Below are positions 1 through 10,232 of a stretch of DNA of 10,232 nt, piece after piece (the stretch's first letter is position 1; the number at the start of each line of letters is the position of its first letter). Source of the DNA: Bacteroidales bacterium (GTDB lineage Bacteria > Bacteroidota > Bacteroidia > Bacteroidales > GCA-2748055); NCBI GenBank assembly GCA_029934875.1, contig JAOZLK010000102.1, positions 1 to 10,232 on the forward strand, written 5' to 3'. The position numbers and the translations under genes are program-made. Below the pieces are notes generated by a model that ran no database searches, was not told where the DNA came from, and saw only the letters and a program-made list of their open reading frames with translations.

Positions 1-1251
1 ACCCGGCTGAAAATCCCCGGTGGCATCCAGCGGCTGGTGAACCTCCTCACCCTCTTCCAGGTGAATGTACCAGGAACCATCGTCAGCCTCACTTGCATCA
101 AAAATCCTTTCCACCCCGTCTTCAAAGTAGCGCCAGCCAAAGCCTCCATATGGTGCCCCATGCTCAAAACTCCCATTGGACAGGCCCCCGTTTTTTCCGA
201 AGCCATCAATGATTTCGCAGGGCTGCACCTGGCTCCATTCCGGATTCAGACCGGCAATATGATCCACCAGGATATGCGCCTGCCCGCTATGGTCCCATTG
301 AGATCCATGCCACTGCTCCCACAACCAGGGAAAGAGGCAGACCGAAAGCCTGGGATCATCCAACTCGTCACGCACTTCATAGTTGTAAATGGCCGGTTCC
401 AGGGGGTCCCATCCATAGCCATTCATCAGGATAATATGGGGCCCTGTTCCATAGACAGCACGCAAATCGGAAACCACATTTTTGAATTTTTGTTTGATCT
501 GAACCTTGCTGCTTTCCCATATGTCGTTGGCCCCTGCATTGACAACAATAATGTGTGGATCAAATCCACTCCGGTAGTCAGGGTCCTGGGTAGAAAAATC
601 AGTGGAGAAGATGAAGGATCCAACACAGTTATCACCCGTTCCATGGAGCTTTGCACCCCCTACCGACTGGTTGTTCATTTCTGCACCGAGCATTCGGGTG
701 GCCATGGCCGGGAAAGCGTAATAAGTGCCCATGTCGCCCTTGTTTTTCTCGCTGTAACTGGAGGATCCGTTCATGTTCGAATCGCCAAAGTAGACTATAC
801 GCAGATCAGGTCGCTCCTGAAGCGGAACGAGTCCCAGACCTTCCACCTTCAAACCATGGAAAAAGCTTCTTCCCTTAAAAGTTTCTTTGAATATCTCCAG
901 GCGATGGATGCCGTCATCCAGGTTCTCCGCAAGAACATAGCTGGCCCTTTCAGGAGACACGAACAGCCTTTCTTCTCCCGGAACGCCATCTAAAATGATG
1001 CGAAACTGCTCTGTTTTTTCACCCCCTAATTCCACACTGAGACCTTTTCCCTTAAAGTTTACCAAAATCGAAGAACCCTGCCATCCCACCCAGGGCTCCC
1101 GGGGATTATCAAAATTCCATCGACCCGTATAACGAATCCCCGGATCTGAAGGCGGGATACTGACCTGGCCATTCGCCAGTGTTCCAAACAACAGCAAAAG
1201 AGCGCAACAAACAGCGGAGCTGTATCTAAATATTTGAAATCGTTGTGTCAT
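1..1251 (-). CDS. CE2-like SGNH carbohydrate esterase, secreted (3' end cut by window edge)
   Basis: Probable polysaccharide O-deacetylase acting outside the cytoplasm. I translated 417 codons without a stop; the gene continues past base 1. Residues 1-28 form a signal peptide (hydrophobic ALLLLFG core, likely type-I cut after A-N-G). Residues about 38-140 look like the N-terminal jelly roll of CE2 esterases (RYTGRWNF, W54-W57, FRIILDG). The SGNH domain follows: block I FGDSN (S158 nucleophile, Asn where Leu is usual), G199 in SVGGA, block III GAND (N242), and a block-V-like WDHSGQAH with H321 as probable catalytic His (Ser replaces the usual Pro after it). From about residue 355 a new beta-rich module begins (NGSFEHG, GFGWRYFEDG), resembling carbohydrate-binding jelly rolls. 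The ATG at 1251 lies 26 bp inside the end of the upstream sulfatase, in another frame, with no Shine-Dalgarno. Last visible gene of the operon. Family assignment is by motif only; the exact acetylated substrate is unknown. Confidence 0.85.
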   Translation of the reverse strand, partial: MTQRFQIFRYSSAVCCALLLLFGTLANGQVSIPPSDPGIRYTGRWNFDNPREPWVGWQGSSILVNFKGKGLSVELGGEKTEQFRIILDGVPGEERLFVSPERASYVLAENLDDGIHRLEIFKETFKGRSFFHGLKVEGLGLVPLQERPDLRIVYFGDSNMNGSSSYSEKNKGDMGTYYAFPAMATRMLGAEMNNQSVGGAKLHGTGDNCVGSFIFSTDFSTQDPDYRSGFDPHIIVVNAGANDIWESSKVQIKQKFKNVVSDLRAVYGTGPHIILMNGYGWDPLEPAIYNYEVRDELDDPRLSVCLFPWLWEQWHGSQWDHSGQAHILVDHIAGLNPEWSQVQPCEIIDGFGKNGGLSNGSFEHGAPYGGFGWRYFEDGVERIFDASEADDGSWYIHLEEGEEVHQPLDATGDFQPG

Positions 1252-2785
1252 TGTATTGGTTTTGTAAGTCAATCAGGCGTTTGTACAGAGTATCTGTGAT
1301 ATTTTCATAGGTTTCTTTGCCGAACAGATTATTCATTTCTGTGGGATCGCTATGTAAATCATACAATTCCCACTGGTCGATATCGTGGTAGAAATGGATC
1401 AACTTGAAGCGTTCGGTCCTTATTCCATAATGCCTTTTTACCGAATGAGGACCCGGATATTCATAGTAGTGATAATAGACTGCATCTCTCCATTCACCCT
1501 TTTCCCGGCCCTCCAGGATGGGCAAGAGTGATTCCCCCTGCATCTCTTCCGGGATGTCAACACCAGCAAGTTCAAGGATGGTGGGCGCGTAATCGATATT
1601 CTGCACCAGTTCGTCCCTTGTGCCCTTTTTAATTCTGGAAGGCAGCCTCATCACCAGCGGGGTACGAAAGGATTCCTCATACATAAAGCGCTTGTCGAAC
1701 CAGCCGTGCTCTCCCAGGTAAAAGCCCTGGTCGGAGGTATAAACCACCAGGGTATTTTCAGCCAGCCCCTTTTTTTCCAGGTAGTCCAGCACACGTCCGA
1801 TGTTTTCATCCACCGAGGCAATGCAACGCAGGTAATCCTCCAGGTAGCGCTGATAGCTCCACTCCAGCAAAGCCTTCCCTTCCAGTGAAGCTTGCTTGTA
1901 AAAATCTATCTCCACGCCATAGGCCTGTTCCCAGGCTTCCCGCTGAGCACTGTTCATCCGATCCATGCGGTACTCAAAGTATTCCTTGAGCGGCCCCTGG
2001 ATCTCTCCTTCCCTGTCCAGCATCTTCAGGTCATAGACCGGACAGAAGTCCTTCATGTGCATCTCTTGCATGGCTGCTGCCTCCCTACCTTCGTATTGAT
2101 CATAAAAATTGTCAGGAAGGGTAAAATTCACATCATTGTACAGATTCAGGGTCGCAGTGTCGGGCATCCAACAACGGTGGGGAGCCTTATGGTGCAGCAG
2201 GAGGCAAAAGGGTTTGGCCCTGTCACGAGTTTCCAGCCACCTGAGCCCCGCGTCCGTAATCAGGTTGGTGACATAACCTTCCACCCTTATCTCTTCCCCC
2301 ATCTCAATAAAATCAGGATTATAATAATGCCCCTGGCCTGGCAGAATACTCCAGTAGTCAAAGCCTGTTGGATCACTGCCCAGGTGCCACTTACCGATCA
2401 TGGCGGTCTGGTAGCCAGCTTCCTGCAGGAGCTTTGGAAAGGTGAGCTGAGCGCCATCGAATACTTCTCCGTTGTTCCGCTGCCCGTTGATGTGTGAGAA
2501 TTTACCTGTAAGCATAACCGCCCTGCTGGGCGAACATATGGAGTTGGTGACAAAACTCTGGTCAAAGCGGATTCCTTCCTTTGCAATGCGGTCGATATTT
2601 GGAGTTTGGTTCAGGCTGCCATTATAGCAGCTGATGGCCTGGTATCCATGGTCGTCGCTCATGATAAACAGGATATTGGGAGCAATAAGTTTTTGAGCTC
2701 CGGGCCTGACACTGCATGAGTGCATAAAGGGAACCAGCAAGCAGAGAAGAAGCAGGGCCCTGTACTCTTGTAATTTTTTCATCAT
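1226..2785 (-). CDS. S1-family sulfatase, GlcNAc-6-O-sulfatase-like lipoprotein
   Basis: Class-I (formylglycine) sulfatase hydrolysing a sugar sulfate ester, 519 aa from the chosen start. Residues 1-24 are a lipoprotein signal (KK, then ALLLLCLLVPF, lipobox MHSC with C24). Metal ligands D44-D45 lie in MSDDHG. The formylglycine motif is C84-S-P-S-R88 followed by LTG. Also visible are GKWHLG (K132, H134), KAPH (H203) and SDQGFYLGEHGWFDKR (D352, Q353, H360, K365). A long insert at about 205-310 and the end motif ELYDLHSDPTEMNNL fit the mucin-desulfating/GlcNAc-6-sulfatase type (SulfAtlas S1_11, as in Bacteroides BT4656); that subfamily call is from memory of motifs. The frame stays open up to an ATG at 2836, but that start would put 17 polar residues before the signal peptide and overlap the previous gene by 46 bp. 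I prefer the tandem ATG-ATG at 2785/2782, which begins 5 bp after the preceding stop. Downstream it overlaps the esterase start. Confidence 0.93.
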   Translation of the reverse strand: MMKKLQEYRALLLLCLLVPFMHSCSVRPGAQKLIAPNILFIMSDDHGYQAISCYNGSLNQTPNIDRIAKEGIRFDQSFVTNSICSPSRAVMLTGKFSHINGQRNNGEVFDGAQLTFPKLLQEAGYQTAMIGKWHLGSDPTGFDYWSILPGQGHYYNPDFIEMGEEIRVEGYVTNLITDAGLRWLETRDRAKPFCLLLHHKAPHRCWMPDTATLNLYNDVNFTLPDNFYDQYEGREAAAMQEMHMKDFCPVYDLKMLDREGEIQGPLKEYFEYRMDRMNSAQREAWEQAYGVEIDFYKQASLEGKALLEWSYQRYLEDYLRCIASVDENIGRVLDYLEKKGLAENTLVVYTSDQGFYLGEHGWFDKRFMYEESFRTPLVMRLPSRIKKGTRDELVQNIDYAPTILELAGVDIPEEMQGESLLPILEGREKGEWRDAVYYHYYEYPGPHSVKRHYGIRTERFKLIHFYHDIDQWELYDLHSDPTEMNNLFGKETYENITDTLYKRLIDLQNQYNDTTISNI

Positions 2786-2790
2786 ATGCT

Positions 2791-4194
2791 TTATCTTAAG
2801 CTTTCCGCTTCCAGGATGTGAGCCACCGAATCGCATTTGCGCCTGTAATGGGCAAGCAGGTCGGAATAATTCTCATCTCCTGCAAGGTTCAGGATTTCAT
2901 GAATATCCTCCTTGTAATGGTAAAGTTCCTCCAGATCAGGCTGGTTCTCGTAGCGAATGAATTTCCATTGTTCGTCGCGGTAAGCCTCGGTTTTAGGCAG
3001 GAGTTCATTATTTTCCAGCCGGTGCTCGCAGAAAAAGCCAGTTCGCCATCCCTCCGGATCGCCTTCTGCAAATACAGTCAGGCTTTCTCCATGATATCCC
3101 CCGGGTATGTCCACACCGGCAAGTGACAGGATGGTGGGTGTTACATCCACGTTTAAAGCCATGGCTTCCGGCGATAGTCCCCTCCTGGAGTCTGGCTGCC
3201 TGGGATCATAAATGATCAGTGGCACCCTCAGGGAGGGTTCATGCATAAGCCATTTGCCGGCATATCCCCTTTCCCCCAGGAAATAACCATTATCGCCCAT
3301 AAGAATGATCACCGTATTTTCTGCCAGGCCCTCCTCCTTCAGGGTGGCCCTTATCCTGCCGATAACACTGTCCACCCCACTGATCATGCGGTAATAACCC
3401 TTGACCATCTCCTGGTGCTTCTCAGGCGTATCGTACCTCCAGTACCACCTTTTCCGGTTCATGGTTGTTTTCAGGAAATCGGGCAAGGCTTCAAAAAAAG
3501 CAGGATCTGCTGTTTCGGGTGTAGGTATCTCCACATCCATATAAAGGGAATCGCAGTACTCGGGCCAGAAATACTGCTGCTCTTCGTCATCATTGGCATG
3601 GGGCGACCAGAAGGACAGTGAAAGGCAAAATGGCTTTTCCTTGTTGGATCGGATATAGTCGATGGCCAGGTCGCCGTGGACATCGGCCAGGTGAACCTGC
3701 TCCCCTTCGCGCTCCACAAAATAAGGATACCATGTTGGTTCAAATGTATGGAAGAGGGAATCGGTGATCCCTTCATTCACCTTTACCCCGAATTTACCCA
3801 CAAATCCGGTGTGATAGCCTGCCTTTTTAAGGAGGAAGGGATAACTCTGCTCCATATGCCTGTTTTCCAGTGCTGGCTTGCCAAAGGTATAGTCATGCGT
3901 GCGTTCGTAAAGTCCAGTGAACAGGGATGCCCGGCTGGCGGCACATATGGGGGTTGTTACAAATGCATTGGGAAAATAGAGGCCTGATGCGGCCAGCCGG
4001 TCCATCTGGGGTGTATGGATGATGGGATTTCCGGCATAAGCCAGTGCATCCCAGCGCTGGTCATCAGTAAGAATAAAAATGATGTTTGGCAAGGGTTCTG
4101 TTTCTGGCACCGTCTTGTTTGCGCAGGCCTGTAATCCCAGCAGCAGGGCGGCCATGGCCATACTTCTCCATTGTAAAAAACGCCCGTTCTTCAT
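2791..4194 (-). CDS. S1-family sulfatase lipoprotein with C-A-A-S-R active site
   Basis: Predicted class-I sulfatase, 467 aa, a usual length for the family. The signal peptide MAALLLGLQAC places the lipid cysteine at C24. Metal ligands are D44-D45 in LTDDQRWD. The formylglycine motif is C84-A-A-S-R88 with LFTG after it, so Ala replaces the common Pro. The usual GKWH is GKFG here (K134 kept, His replaced by G136). H199 in WSPH, D301-N302 in MGDNG and K314 in YAGKW complete the recognisable core. The C-terminal part has the common ending FIRYEN...EELYHYKEDIHEILNL. The start is fixed by a TAATG junction: its ATG shares one base with the stop of the upstream sulfatase, and an AGGAAG stretch just before it may help initiation. 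It shares the DDQRWD, C-A-x-S-R and GK[FW]G features with the divergent sulfatase at 9342. Substrate not assignable; activity is likely but the missing His deserves a test. Confidence 0.93.
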   Translation of the reverse strand: MKNGRFLQWRSMAMAALLLGLQACANKTVPETEPLPNIIFILTDDQRWDALAYAGNPIIHTPQMDRLAASGLYFPNAFVTTPICAASRASLFTGLYERTHDYTFGKPALENRHMEQSYPFLLKKAGYHTGFVGKFGVKVNEGITDSLFHTFEPTWYPYFVEREGEQVHLADVHGDLAIDYIRSNKEKPFCLSLSFWSPHANDDEEQQYFWPEYCDSLYMDVEIPTPETADPAFFEALPDFLKTTMNRKRWYWRYDTPEKHQEMVKGYYRMISGVDSVIGRIRATLKEEGLAENTVIILMGDNGYFLGERGYAGKWLMHEPSLRVPLIIYDPRQPDSRRGLSPEAMALNVDVTPTILSLAGVDIPGGYHGESLTVFAEGDPEGWRTGFFCEHRLENNELLPKTEAYRDEQWKFIRYENQPDLEELYHYKEDIHEILNLAGDENYSDLLAHYRRKCDSVAHILEAESLR

Positions 4195-5711
4195 TACTTC
4201 CTGTATTTTTTATTCAATTCAGGACCCTGGAATATGATTTCCTGGTCAGCCCCTGATGTACTCGCCTTATGAAAGTAATAGGGTATATTTCCGTATTCCC
4301 CCAGTTTGTAGCCCCATTTATCAATATAGTGCTGCCTCGGCATAAAAACATCGCCAGCCTTTTCCATTTCCTTTTGCAAAAGGCCTTCCATTTTTTCCTG
4401 CAAGTTTTCATACCCGGGCTTGCCGGCCAGGTTATCCATCTGAAGTGGGTCTATTTGATGGTCATACAAAAACCATGGTCCCTCAAGGGATTTCACATAG
4501 GCATAACGATTGGTATAAATGCCCCTGTACTCCTTACCCTTGCCTGCAAAGTGGGAGACATTCATAATCAGCGCAGCCCGGTCTTCCCCGGCTCCTTCTT
4601 GGCCAATAAAGGGGACCAAACTTTCCCCTTCAATAAACCCGGGCACCGGCAAACCGGCCATGTCAAGCAAGGTGGGCAGAATGTCCGGGGTATTGATGGG
4701 CGCATCCACGATGATGCTTTTTTTTCCATATAAGGCCGGATAACTGAGAAGGAAGGGAACCCTTACGGATTCGGCCCAGGGAACCTGTTTTTGCCTGGGG
4801 CGCACACCCTGGGAGCCCATCATCTCACCATGGTCGGAGGTAAATACCAGGATGGTATTCTGGCTTATTCCTGCTTCATCCATGGCCTTTTGTAAAAGGC
4901 CCATGCAGGAGTCCAGGGCCAGGATATGTGCATAATAACCCACCGATTCCTTCCTTGCACTTTCCTCCATGTCCTTACTCACATTATCACGCAATACAAT
5001 ATCTTCAGGAGTGAAGCGCCTCATCAAATTTGCAGGGGCGGTGTGGTGAGGAAAATGCGGGGCACCCCAGGCAAGGACCATCAGGAAAGGTTTGCCCCCG
5101 GGGGCATATTTCCGGATATAGGAGATGGCATCCTCTGTTTCAGCATAGGGACCATATCCCTCCCACACTTTTTGCTCCTTACTGTCTCCTTCGTAATAGA
5201 TCAAATGCTGGTATTCATGGGAACACTCCAGGGCCTTCCAGTAGTCAAATCCCTGCCGGCGTTCAGGAGGAGTAAAATCACCACGGCCCATGCCATCCAG
5301 GTGCCATTTGCCGATATAAGAGCTAAGGTATCCGGACTCTTTAAAAAGCTCAGCCATGGTCACCGACTTCGCAGGTAGCTGAAGATCGTTGAAAAACATT
5401 CCGGTGGTGGTGGGGTACTGCCCGGTTAACAATGATGCCCTGTAAGGAGTGCAGACCGGGCAAACTGAGACTGCATTGCTGAAATTGATGCCCTGCCTGG
5501 CCATGGCATCCAGATTGGGTGTTTTCCCGACCAGGTTCGGATCGCCGTTATAAGACGTGGCCTGGGCCCTCCACTGATCAGCCAGCACATAAATCACATT
5601 AGGTTTCTCCAAAAGTGGTTTTTGATCTCTCCCGGTGGTACTCCTGTTTTTGCAGCCAGAAAATAATCCGATCAATAACATGGCTGCAAGGCTTATCCAT
5701 ACTTTTCTCAT
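4194..5711 (-). CDS. S1-family sulfatase lipoprotein with C-T-P-Y-R active site
   Basis: Predicted class-I sulfatase, 505 aa. The lipoprotein signal is short: RK, then ISLAAMLLIGLFSGC with C20. The metal motif is LADQW, so D45 is followed by Gln and only one Asp of the usual pair is present, as in several known sulfatase groups. The formylglycine motif is C87-T-P-Y-R91 with LLTG after it; another cysteine, C84, sits three residues before it (CPVC). GKWHLDG (K135, H137), GAPHFPHH (H219), TSDHGEMMGSQG (D293, H294, Q301) and K308 complete the active-site set. The C-terminal region carries LYDHQIDPLQMDNLAG, the usual closing element near the end of the sulfatase fold, and an extra tail of about 50 residues. 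Its ATG overlaps the stop of the preceding sulfatase (ATGA, 4 bp), and its own stop shares one base with the next start. All key residues are present, so activity is expected; the substrate is not assignable. Confidence 0.93.
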   Translation of the reverse strand: MRKVWISLAAMLLIGLFSGCKNRSTTGRDQKPLLEKPNVIYVLADQWRAQATSYNGDPNLVGKTPNLDAMARQGINFSNAVSVCPVCTPYRASLLTGQYPTTTGMFFNDLQLPAKSVTMAELFKESGYLSSYIGKWHLDGMGRGDFTPPERRQGFDYWKALECSHEYQHLIYYEGDSKEQKVWEGYGPYAETEDAISYIRKYAPGGKPFLMVLAWGAPHFPHHTAPANLMRRFTPEDIVLRDNVSKDMEESARKESVGYYAHILALDSCMGLLQKAMDEAGISQNTILVFTSDHGEMMGSQGVRPRQKQVPWAESVRVPFLLSYPALYGKKSIIVDAPINTPDILPTLLDMAGLPVPGFIEGESLVPFIGQEGAGEDRAALIMNVSHFAGKGKEYRGIYTNRYAYVKSLEGPWFLYDHQIDPLQMDNLAGKPGYENLQEKMEGLLQKEMEKAGDVFMPRQHYIDKWGYKLGEYGNIPYYFHKASTSGADQEIIFQGPELNKKYRK

Positions 5712-7135
5712 GGTTTCAAAATATAATCAGGATTAGGCTCCTCCGGGATTGGAGCATTCACAGATTGCTGCCACTCCAGCAGATCATCCAGGAGTTCATT
5801 TCGTTTTTGGATTTCCTGCATTGAAAGGTCCCTTTCCTCACCGGAATCCTTCCTTAAGTTATACAATTCGACTGAGCTGTTGGCGGCGATATGTTCTCTC
5901 CCTCCATCCAGCACCCATTCTTCAAAAAAGAGCAAAAGTTTCCAGTCTCCCTTACGGATCACGCTTACCGGGCGGGTTCTGAAAATGCTGTCCCGGGAAT
6001 CATCCTGCATTCCCCTGTAGGATTGCAAGTAGGCAGGGAAATGCCAGAAGATGGCTTCCCTGTCCAGTTTATCCGCCCCTTCCAGCAGGGGAACCAGGCT
6101 CTTTCCGTCCAGGGGGTAGTCCGGGGGAGGCATTGCCCCTGCCAGCTCAAGAAAGGTGGGATAAAAATCGGTACTGATCACCGGCAGGTCACAGGTGGTA
6201 CCAGCCTGAATCCTTCCCGGCCAGTTTACAAACATTGGCACCCGGATCCCTCCTTCGTAAAACATGCCCTTTCCCCCGCGAAGCGGGTCCTGGCAGGTAT
6301 AGGTGCCATGGCCCCCGTTGTCGGAGAAAAAGATCAGGAGGGTATTTTCACTCAGGCCCAATTCTCTCAGGGTAGACTCGATTCTACCCACACTTTCATC
6401 CATGCTCTCGATCATTGCAGCATAAGTGGCATGCCTGTGGCACCCATCCTTCTCCTTCTTTCCATATTTCTCAATCATCTCCTGCTTTGCCTGGATGGGT
6501 GTGTGGACCGCGTGATGAGCCAGGTAGAGGAAGAATGGCCTGTCTTTGTTCTGGCTTATAAACCGGATAGCTTCATCGGTAAGTCTGTCGGTCAAATATT
6601 TTCCGGCTTCATTAAAATGCCCCTTATACCCCATCTTTTCCCTATCTATGCTGGTGGAGAATCCCTGCTGCGCGGGATCATGGCCCACGTGCCATTTTCC
6701 GATGGCGGCAGATACATAGCCTTCCGTCTGAATGGCCTCGGCGATGGTAATCTTGTCCAGGGAAATCTCCTGGGAATTGGGGTGGGGTATCAGCCTGCGA
6801 TCCTCACTCCTTCCCCTGGCGGGATTTACAACGGTGTAAACACCATGGCGCGGACTGTACTGACCACTCAGGAAACAGGCACGGGTGGGTGCACAATTTG
6901 CTGCATTGGCATAGGCATTGGTAAATACCATCCCCTGCCCCGCGAGCCGGTTTATGTGGGGGGTTTCATAATAAGCTGATCCCATGTAGGACACATCCGT
7001 CCAACCCAGGTCATCCATCATAATAAATACGATATTGGGTTTTTCGTGCTCCCCTGTGTGTCCGCATGATCCAGACAGGATCACAAAAAACAGACCGAGG
7101 CACAGGTGCAATAGGAATAAGGGGTAGTGCTTCAT
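5708..7135 (-). CDS. Arylsulfatase A-like S1 sulfatase lipoprotein
   Basis: Predicted class-I sulfatase, 475 aa, arylsulfatase A-like. Residues 1-24 form a signal peptide with hydrophobic FLLHLCLGLFFVIL and a possible lipid cysteine C24 in LSGSC; the lipobox is weak, so a type-I signal is possible. D41-D42 in MMDDLGW bind metal. The formylglycine motif is C81-A-P-T-R85 followed by CFLSG. GKWHVG (K147, H149), HHAVHTP (H211), FFSDNGG (D272, N273) and LRGGKGMFYEGGIRVP (K289) are all intact. The SDNGG plus RGGKG...EGGIRVP pairing is typical of the large arylsulfatase A-like branch that acts on sulfated galactans and related sugars; no finer subfamily is claimed. The ATG overlaps the stop of the LamG gene by 4 bp (ATGA), and the stop overlaps the next ATG in the same way, so translation is probably coupled on both sides. 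Confidence 0.94.
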   Translation of the reverse strand: MKHYPLFLLHLCLGLFFVILSGSCGHTGEHEKPNIVFIMMDDLGWTDVSYMGSAYYETPHINRLAGQGMVFTNAYANAANCAPTRACFLSGQYSPRHGVYTVVNPARGRSEDRRLIPHPNSQEISLDKITIAEAIQTEGYVSAAIGKWHVGHDPAQQGFSTSIDREKMGYKGHFNEAGKYLTDRLTDEAIRFISQNKDRPFFLYLAHHAVHTPIQAKQEMIEKYGKKEKDGCHRHATYAAMIESMDESVGRIESTLRELGLSENTLLIFFSDNGGHGTYTCQDPLRGGKGMFYEGGIRVPMFVNWPGRIQAGTTCDLPVISTDFYPTFLELAGAMPPPDYPLDGKSLVPLLEGADKLDREAIFWHFPAYLQSYRGMQDDSRDSIFRTRPVSVIRKGDWKLLLFFEEWVLDGGREHIAANSSVELYNLRKDSGEERDLSMQEIQKRNELLDDLLEWQQSVNAPIPEEPNPDYILKP

Positions 7136-9264
7136 TTTCTTAGAACAATTTTTACCGGTTTATCTTCTTCAATGGAAAACCACAGGATCAGGTCTTCTCC
7201 CTCCAGGCTTCGCCTGATACCCTGCCTGAAATCTTCACCCTCAGCCAGATTTTTATCGTTGAGGAAGCAGGTGGCAGGCCAACTGCCCCAGTTTTTGATG
7301 ATGATGGCCGGATTGACCAGGGGAGAATCAGCCGAAGCTTCCAGCACCAGGCTGAGAGGTGAACCATCACCGGAGTCCCCCTGCTCTATCATGTAAGCCC
7401 GCTCCGAACGGTCATATGCTCCACCTGTGAAACCTTCGGAGGAAATTGTCATTTCCGGAGCCTGCAACCAGGACCTGGCCAGCGGAAGGAGATCGCCGGC
7501 CGGTTTATCGGTCATGCCCTGCAACATAATCCTGGTCCGCGTGCGATCAGTGTATTCGTAGTCATTCCACTGCACGAAGGTGGTCAGGTTAAAATGGCTT
7601 GGACGGTCCGGCGTAGTCACCCACCTGCCATCTCCGGGAATCTGCGCCACGGGCCAGTGGTTCCACCATCCATAAGCTGTTGGAGCCGGATCGGGCCGGT
7701 AGTCTGTACTGGCCATATGGGCAGCATAGCTTCTGATATAGGGTGAATCCCAGTTACCCTCCACCGTTTCCACAGAATCCGGTGATACAATAAAAAAGGG
7801 CCGGTAGTCCGATTTCAGATGAACATAGGACATGTTGGCCCCCCTGGGTTCGGACATGGCTATTTCCAGGTTCTCATCCCAGGTATAAGCCTTCACATCA
7901 CCATCCATGTTCACCAGGGAGATGCTTTTCTCCTCAATGACATCCCCGGGATACTTCCCGGGTGGCAGAACCACGATCTGTTCCACCCAGTCGTGACGAC
8001 GTTCGGGATGTGAGTAGTGCAGCTCCATTTTCCTGATTCCCACCTGGTCGGGATACAAAATATGAAATTCATCACACCATTCTCCCCTGCCATCGTCTGA
8101 CATGGCCGCAAAATCATATAAGGCATCATTGAGTGCATAACGCCAGTGAATGACCACGCGGGCCGCTGTATTTTCAATGAGTCGTACATGGGAGTAACGG
8201 CAATGCCTGTCCATGATGGGTTCGGCGCAGCTGACCACGTCACTGCCCCAGGTTTCCAGCCATTCATTGGTATACCAGATGTCATTCTCGGTCACCCAGC
8301 AGGGATTGAAGCTGGTCCCCCGCCAGAATACCATCTGAACCGGTGAACGGTCAAAACGAACGAAGAGGTCCGGCACTTCACTTACCCGCCACAGATCATC
8401 CCATTCCTTATAGTAATTCAGCCGGGTATAAAAAGCTCCGAAGCTTCCTGATCCATCGGGCCCCCTGGGTAATACATCACGTCTGCTCAGTGCCGGAACA
8501 GGCAGCTCGCTTAAAGCAGTGATTTCGGTACTGATTTCCTTCTCCGTCCGGGCCGATCCACTAATTTTTATTTCGTCCAGGATCCCATCCAGGAAAAAAT
8601 GGGCACTTGCAGTGGTAAACTGGGGTTCATGCCATACCTGCGCATCCTTGTTCCGGCCAATGGTCATAGAGCCTCCCAGGTGAGGAACAAAATTACCCTT
8701 GATATCCAGGGAAGCTTCCTCTTTCCCGTTCACAAACACCCTGATCCTGTTGCCGGGTTCAAATACAGCCGCCACATGGGTCCACTCCTTCAATTGAATA
8801 CTCACATCGGTGGTGGCCTCATACCAGGTATTCCCTGCTCCAGTTTTAAACCCCACCTGTCCTTTGGCGTTAATGCCAAAAAAGAAGCCTTTCTGCCTTT
8901 CAAAGGAACAATCCAGTACCGGTGACCATGACCAGGGGTAGCTTGCCAGGGCAAGCCATGCTTCCAGGGTAAACCCGGACTCGGGATCACCCCAGTTTAA
9001 AGCGGGCCTCCTTATGAATGTCCGGAATCCATCCAGCTTAATGCCATGGCCGAATATGCCGGGAACCCTTTCGAAGTTCCCGTATATGGAATCCTTCTTC
9101 TGTGAGATCTTTTCATAGGCGAAAGGCCCGTAATTCTCATCAAATGACCACCAGCCAAGCACGTCGGGTTCTGATTGGGCAAAGCCTTGTGAACACACAA
9201 AAACTGAAAGAAGCAAAACCCGGATACAGCCGGGCAGCAATGCAGATGATTTGCCTGAGCTCAT
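7132..9264 (-). CDS. Secreted LamG-domain protein with large unassigned C-terminal region
   Basis: First gene of the minus-strand operon, 710 aa. Residues 1-29 are a type-I signal peptide (VLLLSVFVCSQGFA, cut before Q30). Residues about 36-240 form a LamG/concanavalin-like jelly roll: WWSFDE at 38-43, FTLEAWL at 98-104, EWTHVAAVFEPG and IRVFVNG at 160-180, and DGILDEIKISGSART at 226-240. Such domains usually bind glycans. Residues about 255-710 match no family I recognise. They are rich in aromatic and charged residues, with clusters WYTNEWLETWG (330-340), CRYSHVRLIE (355-364), RGEWCDEFHILYP (393-405) and YGWWNHWPVAQIPGDGRW (531-548). The length and the conserved-looking Trp/His/Tyr/Arg content suggest an enzyme (lyase, hydrolase or esterase) rather than a simple binder; this is inference from composition and from its lead place before four sulfatases. 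No other in-frame ATG lies nearby upstream. The start has no Shine-Dalgarno. Confidence 0.9.
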   Translation of the reverse strand: MSSGKSSALLPGCIRVLLLSVFVCSQGFAQSEPDVLGWWSFDENYGPFAYEKISQKKDSIYGNFERVPGIFGHGIKLDGFRTFIRRPALNWGDPESGFTLEAWLALASYPWSWSPVLDCSFERQKGFFFGINAKGQVGFKTGAGNTWYEATTDVSIQLKEWTHVAAVFEPGNRIRVFVNGKEEASLDIKGNFVPHLGGSMTIGRNKDAQVWHEPQFTTASAHFFLDGILDEIKISGSARTEKEISTEITALSELPVPALSRRDVLPRGPDGSGSFGAFYTRLNYYKEWDDLWRVSEVPDLFVRFDRSPVQMVFWRGTSFNPCWVTENDIWYTNEWLETWGSDVVSCAEPIMDRHCRYSHVRLIENTAARVVIHWRYALNDALYDFAAMSDDGRGEWCDEFHILYPDQVGIRKMELHYSHPERRHDWVEQIVVLPPGKYPGDVIEEKSISLVNMDGDVKAYTWDENLEIAMSEPRGANMSYVHLKSDYRPFFIVSPDSVETVEGNWDSPYIRSYAAHMASTDYRPDPAPTAYGWWNHWPVAQIPGDGRWVTTPDRPSHFNLTTFVQWNDYEYTDRTRTRIMLQGMTDKPAGDLLPLARSWLQAPEMTISSEGFTGGAYDRSERAYMIEQGDSGDGSPLSLVLEASADSPLVNPAIIIKNWGSWPATCFLNDKNLAEGEDFRQGIRRSLEGEDLILWFSIEEDKPVKIVLRK

Positions 9265-9341
9265 GATATTGCTATGGTTTGGATGAAAATTAGTAAATTT
9301 TATTGTCCTATCTTTATTTTCTGAGCTTTAAAACTCCTGAG
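9265..9341. promoter_or_regulatory. Divergent intergenic promoter region
   Basis: This 77-bp A+T-rich spacer is the only non-coding stretch in the window and lies between the starts of two opposite transcripts: the six-gene operon to the left and the sulfatase to the right. It must carry 5' leader sequence and probably the promoters. Two partial matches to the Bacteroidota -7 element TAnnTTTG are visible: TAATTTTC on the minus strand (9285-9292, 20 bp before the LamG start) and TATCTTTA on the plus strand (9309-9316). Neither has a TTTG at the right -33 spacing, so these are weak. Promoters could also lie inside the start of the opposite gene. Confidence 0.5.
9323..9336. promoter_or_regulatory. 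Imperfect 14-bp palindrome, possible operator
   Basis: GAGCTTTAAAACTC reads the same on both strands except for one mismatched base pair (6 of 7 arm pairs match), centred on TTTAAA. It lies in the divergent spacer, 5 bp before the ATG of the right-hand sulfatase. Such a symmetric site could bind a dimeric regulator or be chance in A+T-rich DNA; CTGAG is also directly repeated around it (9321-9325 and 9337-9341). No regulator gene is in the window to link to it. Confidence 0.2.
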
Positions 9342-10232
9342 ATGCGCATTTGCCATACTTGCATACCCATATGCTGTAAAGTGTTGATTATATGGTTTTT
9401 TTGCTTTCAGGCAATCAGCTGCAACAAAGCAGCCCGGCAAACTGAAATGCCAAATTTCCTGGTATTGATATCAGATGATCAAAGATGGGACCAGCTGAGC
9501 TATGCAGATTGTCCCCTGATCCCCCAATTGTTAACCCCGAACATGGACAGGCTGGCACATGAGGGAGTTTTTTTCAGGAATGCCTTTGTCACCACCCCCA
9601 TTTGTGCGGTATCAAGGGCAAGCATTATGACAGGAAGGTATTCCAGCACACATGGCATGAATCATTTCAGAACCCCGCTGGGAAAAGAGGTGATCAGCAA
9701 TAGTTACCCGGCACAACTGCATGATCACGGTTACCGCACAGGGATCCTGGGCAAATGGGGAATGGGAACGGAAGGTACTGAGGAGTTTTTTGATGTATTT
9801 AATGCCTGGATGACCCAGGGGACTTATTTTCACGACACTGACAGCGGCTGGATCCACAATGCGGAATGGCTCGCCCTCAATGCCACGAAATTCCTTGAAT
9901 CCTGCAAAGAAAAGCAGCCCTTTTGTCTTACGGTCTGCTACAAATCCCCACACCACCCCTACCAGCCTGACGAGCGGGATAAATCCCTATACGAAAAAGT
10001 ACAAATTCCCAGGAGAGAGACGGATACCCCTCAGGACTACCAGGCCATGCCGATGCATGTGATGGAAAAATCACTAAACAGGTGGTGCTATTTCGATGAG
10101 AGAGGAGACGAGGACACGAAAAACAGCTTTGAAAAGGATTTCCTTCGCTGTGTAAAAAGCCTGGACCGGTCGGTGGGAAAGATCACACAGACCCTGAAGG
10201 AACTAAAGCTTGATGAAAACACCATTGTTATT
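9342..10232 (+). CDS. S1-family sulfatase with C-A-V-S-R active site (3' end cut by window edge)
   Basis: I translated 297 codons without a stop; the gene runs off the right edge just before the expected SDxG motif. Divergent from the operon. From the ATG at 9342 the N-terminus has K13, then VLIIWFFCFQ and a lipobox-like AISC with lipid cysteine C27; this leader holds six cysteines. GTG 9381 or TTG 9384 would shorten it but remove all positive charge, so 9342 is preferred. Metal ligands D45-D46 lie in ISDDQRWD. The formylglycine motif is C88-A-V-S-R92 followed by IMTG, so Val replaces the usual Pro. GKWGMG (K138) lacks the His of GKWH. YKSPHHPYQ holds the mid-domain His. It shares its unusual motifs with the sulfatase at 4194-2791 and is probably of a related subfamily. 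Active-site chemistry cannot be fully judged because the C-terminal part, with the second metal Asp and its Asn or His partner, is outside the window. Confidence 0.9.
   Translation, partial: MRICHTCIPICCKVLIIWFFCFQAISCNKAARQTEMPNFLVLISDDQRWDQLSYADCPLIPQLLTPNMDRLAHEGVFFRNAFVTTPICAVSRASIMTGRYSSTHGMNHFRTPLGKEVISNSYPAQLHDHGYRTGILGKWGMGTEGTEEFFDVFNAWMTQGTYFHDTDSGWIHNAEWLALNATKFLESCKEKQPFCLTVCYKSPHHPYQPDERDKSLYEKVQIPRRETDTPQDYQAMPMHVMEKSLNRWCYFDERGDEDTKNSFEKDFLRCVKSLDRSVGKITQTLKELKLDENTIVI

Follow-up and report, generated by a model that had tools for sequence, protein, structure and literature searches.

The window analysed here, which is the entire contig JAOZLK010000102.1 (10,232 bases) of the Bacteroidales draft genome GCA_029934875.1 (4.8 Mb), encodes a protein of 710 amino acids (aa) in which a LamG domain precedes a long C-terminal region. 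This region (residues 255–710) is a member of a coherent Bacteroidota family that lies outside the sequence libraries we searched. We tentatively propose, with confidence just short of an even chance, that residues 269–710 make up the catalytic portion of a secreted enzyme acting on carbohydrates, and that this enzyme represents a glycan-cleaving family not yet described, probably of glycoside hydrolases. The proposal is based on absence from the libraries searched, the predicted fold, residue conservation and the genomic neighbourhood; from these we infer the enzymatic nature of the domain, hydrolysis over elimination, the acting residues, an endo mode of action and the substrate.

The initial annotation of this DNA had stated that residues 255–710 fit no known family, and our searches agree: Pfam, at E ≤ 1, lists no match for the protein beyond LamG, and NCBIfam and the PDB sequences gave weak matches only (best E 0.021 and 0.26, respectively), nothing above chance. 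A profile of 42 distinct homologues (29–80% identity to the window protein; effective number of sequences about 27) found no match at E ≤ 10 among all PDB chain sequences, a library in which, as a control, the PL26 central domain used as query recovers PL26 chains. This search of PDB chains is the sequence test for GH174, whose presence in the library is taken from the library description. Comparison of the domain family by hhalign yielded a probability of 0.2 against six PL26 proteins, 1.1 against one PL26 central domain and 0.1 against two GH186 proteins (OpgG and OpgD), compared with 100 for a control pair within the domain family; because the PL26 and GH186 sets comprise six and two proteins, weak homology to either could be missed. 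Neither of the Pfam models for PL26 (PcRGLX) and GH186 (PF04349, MdoG) matches the protein, and MdoG was not found in any of the 198 genomes sampled from the phylum. Since the sequence test was negative for each, the protein should not, to judge from its sequence, be filed as GH174, PL26 or GH186. Comparison of the first and second parts of the domain gave no signal of internal duplication. No published description of the domain family came up in a search of the literature and the family libraries, which did not extend to CAZy, dbCAN or the large protein database.

The AlphaFold2 model of residues 255–710 (mff40846b336d; predicted local distance difference test (pLDDT) 87.9, predicted TM-score (pTM) 0.91) is dominated by beta-strands and has only short helices. 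According to this model and that of the supersandwich domain (mdeb85d61b26c; pLDDT 88.0, pTM 0.89), the region comprises at least two domains, predicted to be a galactose-mutarotase-like beta-supersandwich (residues ~269–604) and then a small C-terminal beta domain. The top fold matches are tied between the PL26 central domain, a GH174 endo-fucanase and GH38, with LacZ also among the best; the predicted fold is shared with GH174 and PL26. OpgG (8ip2) was matched by Foldseek with E 2.7e-4 and TMq 0.24 and is not among the 50 VIA matches listed. In a viral fold library two matches passed E ≤ 0.001 (1.7e-5 and 5.9e-4; TM ~0.4). The best Foldseek matches also include galactose mutarotases (E ~2e-5), as would be expected of a mutarotase-like or other non-depolymerising enzyme acting on released sugars. 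We consider such a role very improbable, given that the protein is probably secreted, as its sequence suggests, and carries LamG, and that the superposition is poor (root mean square deviation 9–11 Å over ~380 columns, TM ~0.4, identity 7–8%).

The supersandwich appears to be the catalytic domain of GH186, and PL26 enzymes have an N-terminal domain and a C-terminal helical toroid. The region may resemble GH186 OpgG/OpgD in its predicted layout, a supersandwich followed by a small beta domain, as in the architecture of OpgG. With PL26 exo-rhamnogalacturonan lyase the model shares the fold of the central beta-sandwich (PcRGLX_2nd, PF21345), but the protein has neither the N-terminal nor the toroid domain of PL26, its N-terminus being occupied by LamG. 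The supersandwich also appears to be common to the modelled domain and the GH174 endo-1,3-fucanases (8jd7, 9k1g), although no profile match was found among PDB chains and the fold alignment has 4% identity. The likeness to LamG/concanavalin-like lectins concerns the N-terminal part only, where residues 94–245 belong to PF13385 (82.3 bits, gathering cut-off 27.6). GH192–194 were considered as supersandwich precedents and rejected, as they belong to clan GH-S together with GH144/GH162 (PMC12102758).

The domain is distinguished by its conservation across the family rather than by aromatic clusters. F304, E337, E348, D352, R369, R375, Y404, P405, P538, G583 and W599 are invariant in all 42 homologues, H536 is kept in at least 90% of them, and 43 of 456 domain positions reach at least 88% weighted identity. 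The strings YGWWNHWP (531–538) and EWCDEFHILYP (395–405), from which the initial annotation had argued for a carbohydrate-binding cleft, are located as it described, but the dense aromatic clusters, though present, are not unusual, as random shuffling of the domain sequence produced an 8-mer as dense as its densest (5/8 W/Y/F/H) in 867 of 2000 trials.

N-terminal half-copies of the domain, which match just its first 120–180 positions, were found at 12 loci (L099, L098, L095, L077, L017, L100, L079, L094, L014, L084, L103 and L096). In the comparison of these 12, from which one truncated copy of the full domain was excluded, D299, D352, R375 and E399 are retained throughout (12/12), as against E337 in 3/12, E348 in 4/12, R369 in 1/12 and Y404 in 2/12; H536 is outside the region that half-copies cover. 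Taken as an internal control, this loss singles out E337, E348, R369 and Y404, together with H536, as functional candidates. In the mechanism that we envisage, a putative groove of the supersandwich would bind the polysaccharide, and the invariant E337 and E348 would cleave the glycosidic bond by acid/base hydrolysis, aided by R369, Y404 and H536, and LamG would bind or present the glycan. Hydrolysis is modelled here on the GH174 fucanases, which appear to use a comparable fold. Among enzymes with such a fold GH174 is the closest, and hydrolysis by E337 and E348 would be the simplest reading. The catalytic acidic residues of GH174 Fun174A are D119, E120 and E218 (table in PMC11943901). The substrate would probably be sulfated polysaccharides rich in deoxy-sugars (fucose, rhamnose), with sulfatases and exo-glycosidases as partners.

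The candidacy of the protein as a glycan enzyme, raised in the initial annotation, gains from the absence of a known sequence family in the libraries searched, the conserved polar residues and a predicted fold that appears to be the catalytic one in GH174 and GH186, but the C-terminal domain of GH38 has this fold without being catalytic. The supersandwich and LamG could together be a non-catalytic binding or scaffolding unit that holds polysaccharide for partner enzymes, an alternative that we regard as unlikely, though it deserves serious attention. LamG is a binding module, the enzymes around family members are diverse, and the domain of LacZ that was matched is non-catalytic. The same is true of the matching domain of GH38, which is the top GH fold match of OpgD (PMC10514313) and also one of the matches of our domain. 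GH186 offers a precedent, since the GH fold closest to this new glycosidase was a GH38 part without catalytic function (PMC10514313). Against a purely binding role, two Glu, two Arg and one Tyr invariant in 42/42 would exceed the usual conservation of binding modules, and there are domain copies without room for LamG.

For the neighbourhood analysis, a maximum of two genes outside the family, each encoding 150 aa or more, was taken from either flank of 43 complete or partial family genes, in total 109 genes after removal of two duplicate stretches; the control comprised 109 genes out of 196 that lie on arbitrarily selected contigs in nine of these genomes, the neighbours at L029–L034 having no control of their own. 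Pfam sulfatases account for 17/109 neighbours (9/55 and 8/54) versus at most 1/109 control genes, for which the Pfam list is ordered by member count and runs down to single-member families (Fisher p ~8e-5; 3e-4 when the three from the window are left out). Glycoside hydrolase families 2, 3, 27, 29, 31, 95, 106 and 127 are present among the neighbours; taken alone, GH2 N-domains are not enriched (5/109 versus 2/109). At the seven close orthologous loci with context (the window and L029–L034), where assignments were made partly by similarity to Pfam-scanned neighbours, sulfatases occur in 4, GH106 in 3, GH27 in 2, and GH115 and GH95 in 1 each. The sulfatase link holds across genomes, with glycoside hydrolases also present, but with 4/7 close orthologous loci it is looser than the window suggests. 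The abundance of GH29 fucosidases was rejected as a marker of the family, since these enzymes were found in 29/35 chosen genomes, both with and without it. We also dropped the idea that unknown neighbour proteins are hidden GH174 members, as three of them gave only chance-level matches to PDB sequences.

Several points weigh against a glycan-cleaving hydrolase. The supersandwich fold is common and often non-catalytic, the PL26, GH174 and GH38 matches fall within 1 Z unit of each other, with GH174 at 4% identity, and a review gives Fun174A a separate beta-sandwich binding domain, the assignment of the supersandwich as the catalytic part of GH174 being ours. The key residues were identified from the alignment, their common groove is assumed, and the half-copy alignment near E348 is uncertain. 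Among the neighbours, genes of one locus are not independent, gene types vary widely, and the proteins are longer on average than those of the control (55,297 versus 44,669 residues for 109 genes each). Finally, R369 and Y404 fit an eliminase as well as they fit a hydrolase. If the protein were a polysaccharide lyase or a uronate dehydratase, beta-elimination beside a uronic acid would fall to Y404, H536 and the arginines; in the ulvan dehydratase P29_PDnc the catalytic residues include K303. We judge elimination improbable, as hhalign detects no sequence relation to PL26 and there is no room for the PL26 helical toroid. In the Pfam tables compiled per protein, GH88/GH105, the usual partners of eliminases, are represented only by a weak secondary match in one GH127 protein, and the neighbour tallies, which list 25/72 and 25/74 families, do not exclude them.

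Judging by the counts in the genome samples and the 11 contigs of its own genome, the family is rare, patchy and often multi-copy. The own genome has domain-protein matches on these 11 contigs at E ≤ 0.01, at least two of them partial. A scan of GTDB species genomes, sensitive to close relatives only, found 7 loci, all recorded as Bacteroidota (best-segment identity 57–73%). Profile searches matched 2/395 genomes of a phylum sample, own genome included, and 10/393 of an order sample (8/393 at full length, two as short pieces only); in a smaller sample 12/61 genomes match, seven within the LamG part only, and the domain itself is present in 5/61. None of 35 pattern matches in viral contigs was confirmed. 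The recurrent forms are LamG plus domain (~675–725 aa), the domain alone without room for LamG (458–489 aa), and half-copy plus LamG plus domain (~860–940 aa). Single exceptions are L017 (half-copy and domain, LamG not found), L097 (a different N-terminus, cut by the contig end) and a 1227-aa protein with an additional N-terminal domain (L079:7964-11644). In a Pfam scan of ten members besides the window protein, LamG was present in 5 and not found in 5. By their size L076:11325-12716, L092:9121-10494 and L102:1564-3030 lack LamG, and the first and third of these gave no match in Pfam. In a maximum-likelihood tree 26/39 inner branches are well supported and subfamilies span genomes; the window protein falls into a group of nine rows on an end branch of 0.28, compared with 0.085 for its sister, and retains the key residues. 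The closest relative of the window gene (L029/L036, G014) has one in-frame stop upstream of the supersandwich, about at the start of LamG.

A second family of ~540 aa adjoins or lies near domain genes in three genomes (L079, L081 and L084). The member tested has no match in Pfam or NCBIfam and only chance-level matches to PDB sequences, and no profile similarity relates this family to the domain family. In one genome it is fused in front of LamG and the supersandwich (L079:7964-11644), and the fused part shares 61% identity with the stand-alone protein L084:11413-13044. The fusion and adjacency suggest that the two families act on the same substrate. We may be dealing, and here we are somewhat more doubtful than hopeful, with the founder of a new supersandwich family of glycan-cleaving enzymes. 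Such a family would have multiplied to many copies in the genomes of specialised Bacteroidota, its subfamilies would each serve a different sulfated or deoxy-sugar polysaccharide, and it would be partnered with the ~540-aa family. Degradation of sulfated algal polysaccharides is slow, and knowledge of the enzymes that cleave their backbones is incomplete. With the domain delimited, its fold modelled confidently, specific residues identified for mutagenesis and a partner family known from a fusion, the question is directly testable.

As the initial annotation had it, LamG lies ahead of the unassigned region and the gene leads four sulfatases and an esterase; open reading frames (ORFs) and Pfam agree. 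The target gene heads a same-strand operon in which the sulfatases are followed by a CE2_N/GDSL-type esterase and successive ORFs overlap by 1 to 47 bases (Table 1). The claim that the transcript encodes no glycoside hydrolase or lyase holds within the window and is limited by the contig ends: the window spans the whole contig, so the cluster is truncated on both sides.

Table 1. Features of the window and loci of the second family
Feature	Position	Strand	Basis
Target protein gene, 710 aa: LamG, supersandwich, small C-terminal beta domain	7132..9264	-	ORF, Pfam, AlphaFold2 model
Probable signal peptide, residues ~1–30	9175..9264	-	sequence judged by eye
LamG (PF13385), residues 94–245	8530..8985	-	Pfam, E 5.2e-23
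Predicted beta-supersandwich domain, residues ~269–604	7453..8460	-	model mdeb85d61b26c and fold matches
Small C-terminal all-beta domain, residues ~605–710	7135..7452	-	strands in model mff40846b336d; Ig-like by inference
Residues 337–352, invariant E337, E348, D352 (E337 and E348 candidate active-site acids)	8209..8256	-	alignment
Residues 369–404, invariant R369, R375, Y404	8053..8160	-	alignment
H536 of NHWP motif, nearly invariant	7657..7659	-	alignment
Sulfatase 1, 4-base overlap with target gene	5708..7135	-	ORF and Pfam
Sulfatase 2	4194..5711	-	ORF and Pfam
Sulfatase 3	2791..4194	-	ORF and Pfam
Sulfatase 4	1226..2836	-	ORF and Pfam
CE2_N and GDSL-type esterase, cut by contig end	1..1272	-	ORF and Pfam
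Fifth sulfatase, divergent, cut by contig end; start codon unsure	9303..10232	+	ORF and Pfam
Second-family loci	L079:7964-11644, L079:6257-7882, L081:5384-7102, L081:7062-9008, L084:11413-13044		

Elsewhere, another related pair of large proteins lies near family members (L081:502-2946 and L078:5691-8753), the former without a match in Pfam or NCBIfam. At L079:14344-17601 a 1086-aa protein combines a sulfatase, a GH2-like region and a 3-keto-disaccharide hydrolase domain. The window's own genome has 97 sulfatase matches, part of them pieces at contig ends.
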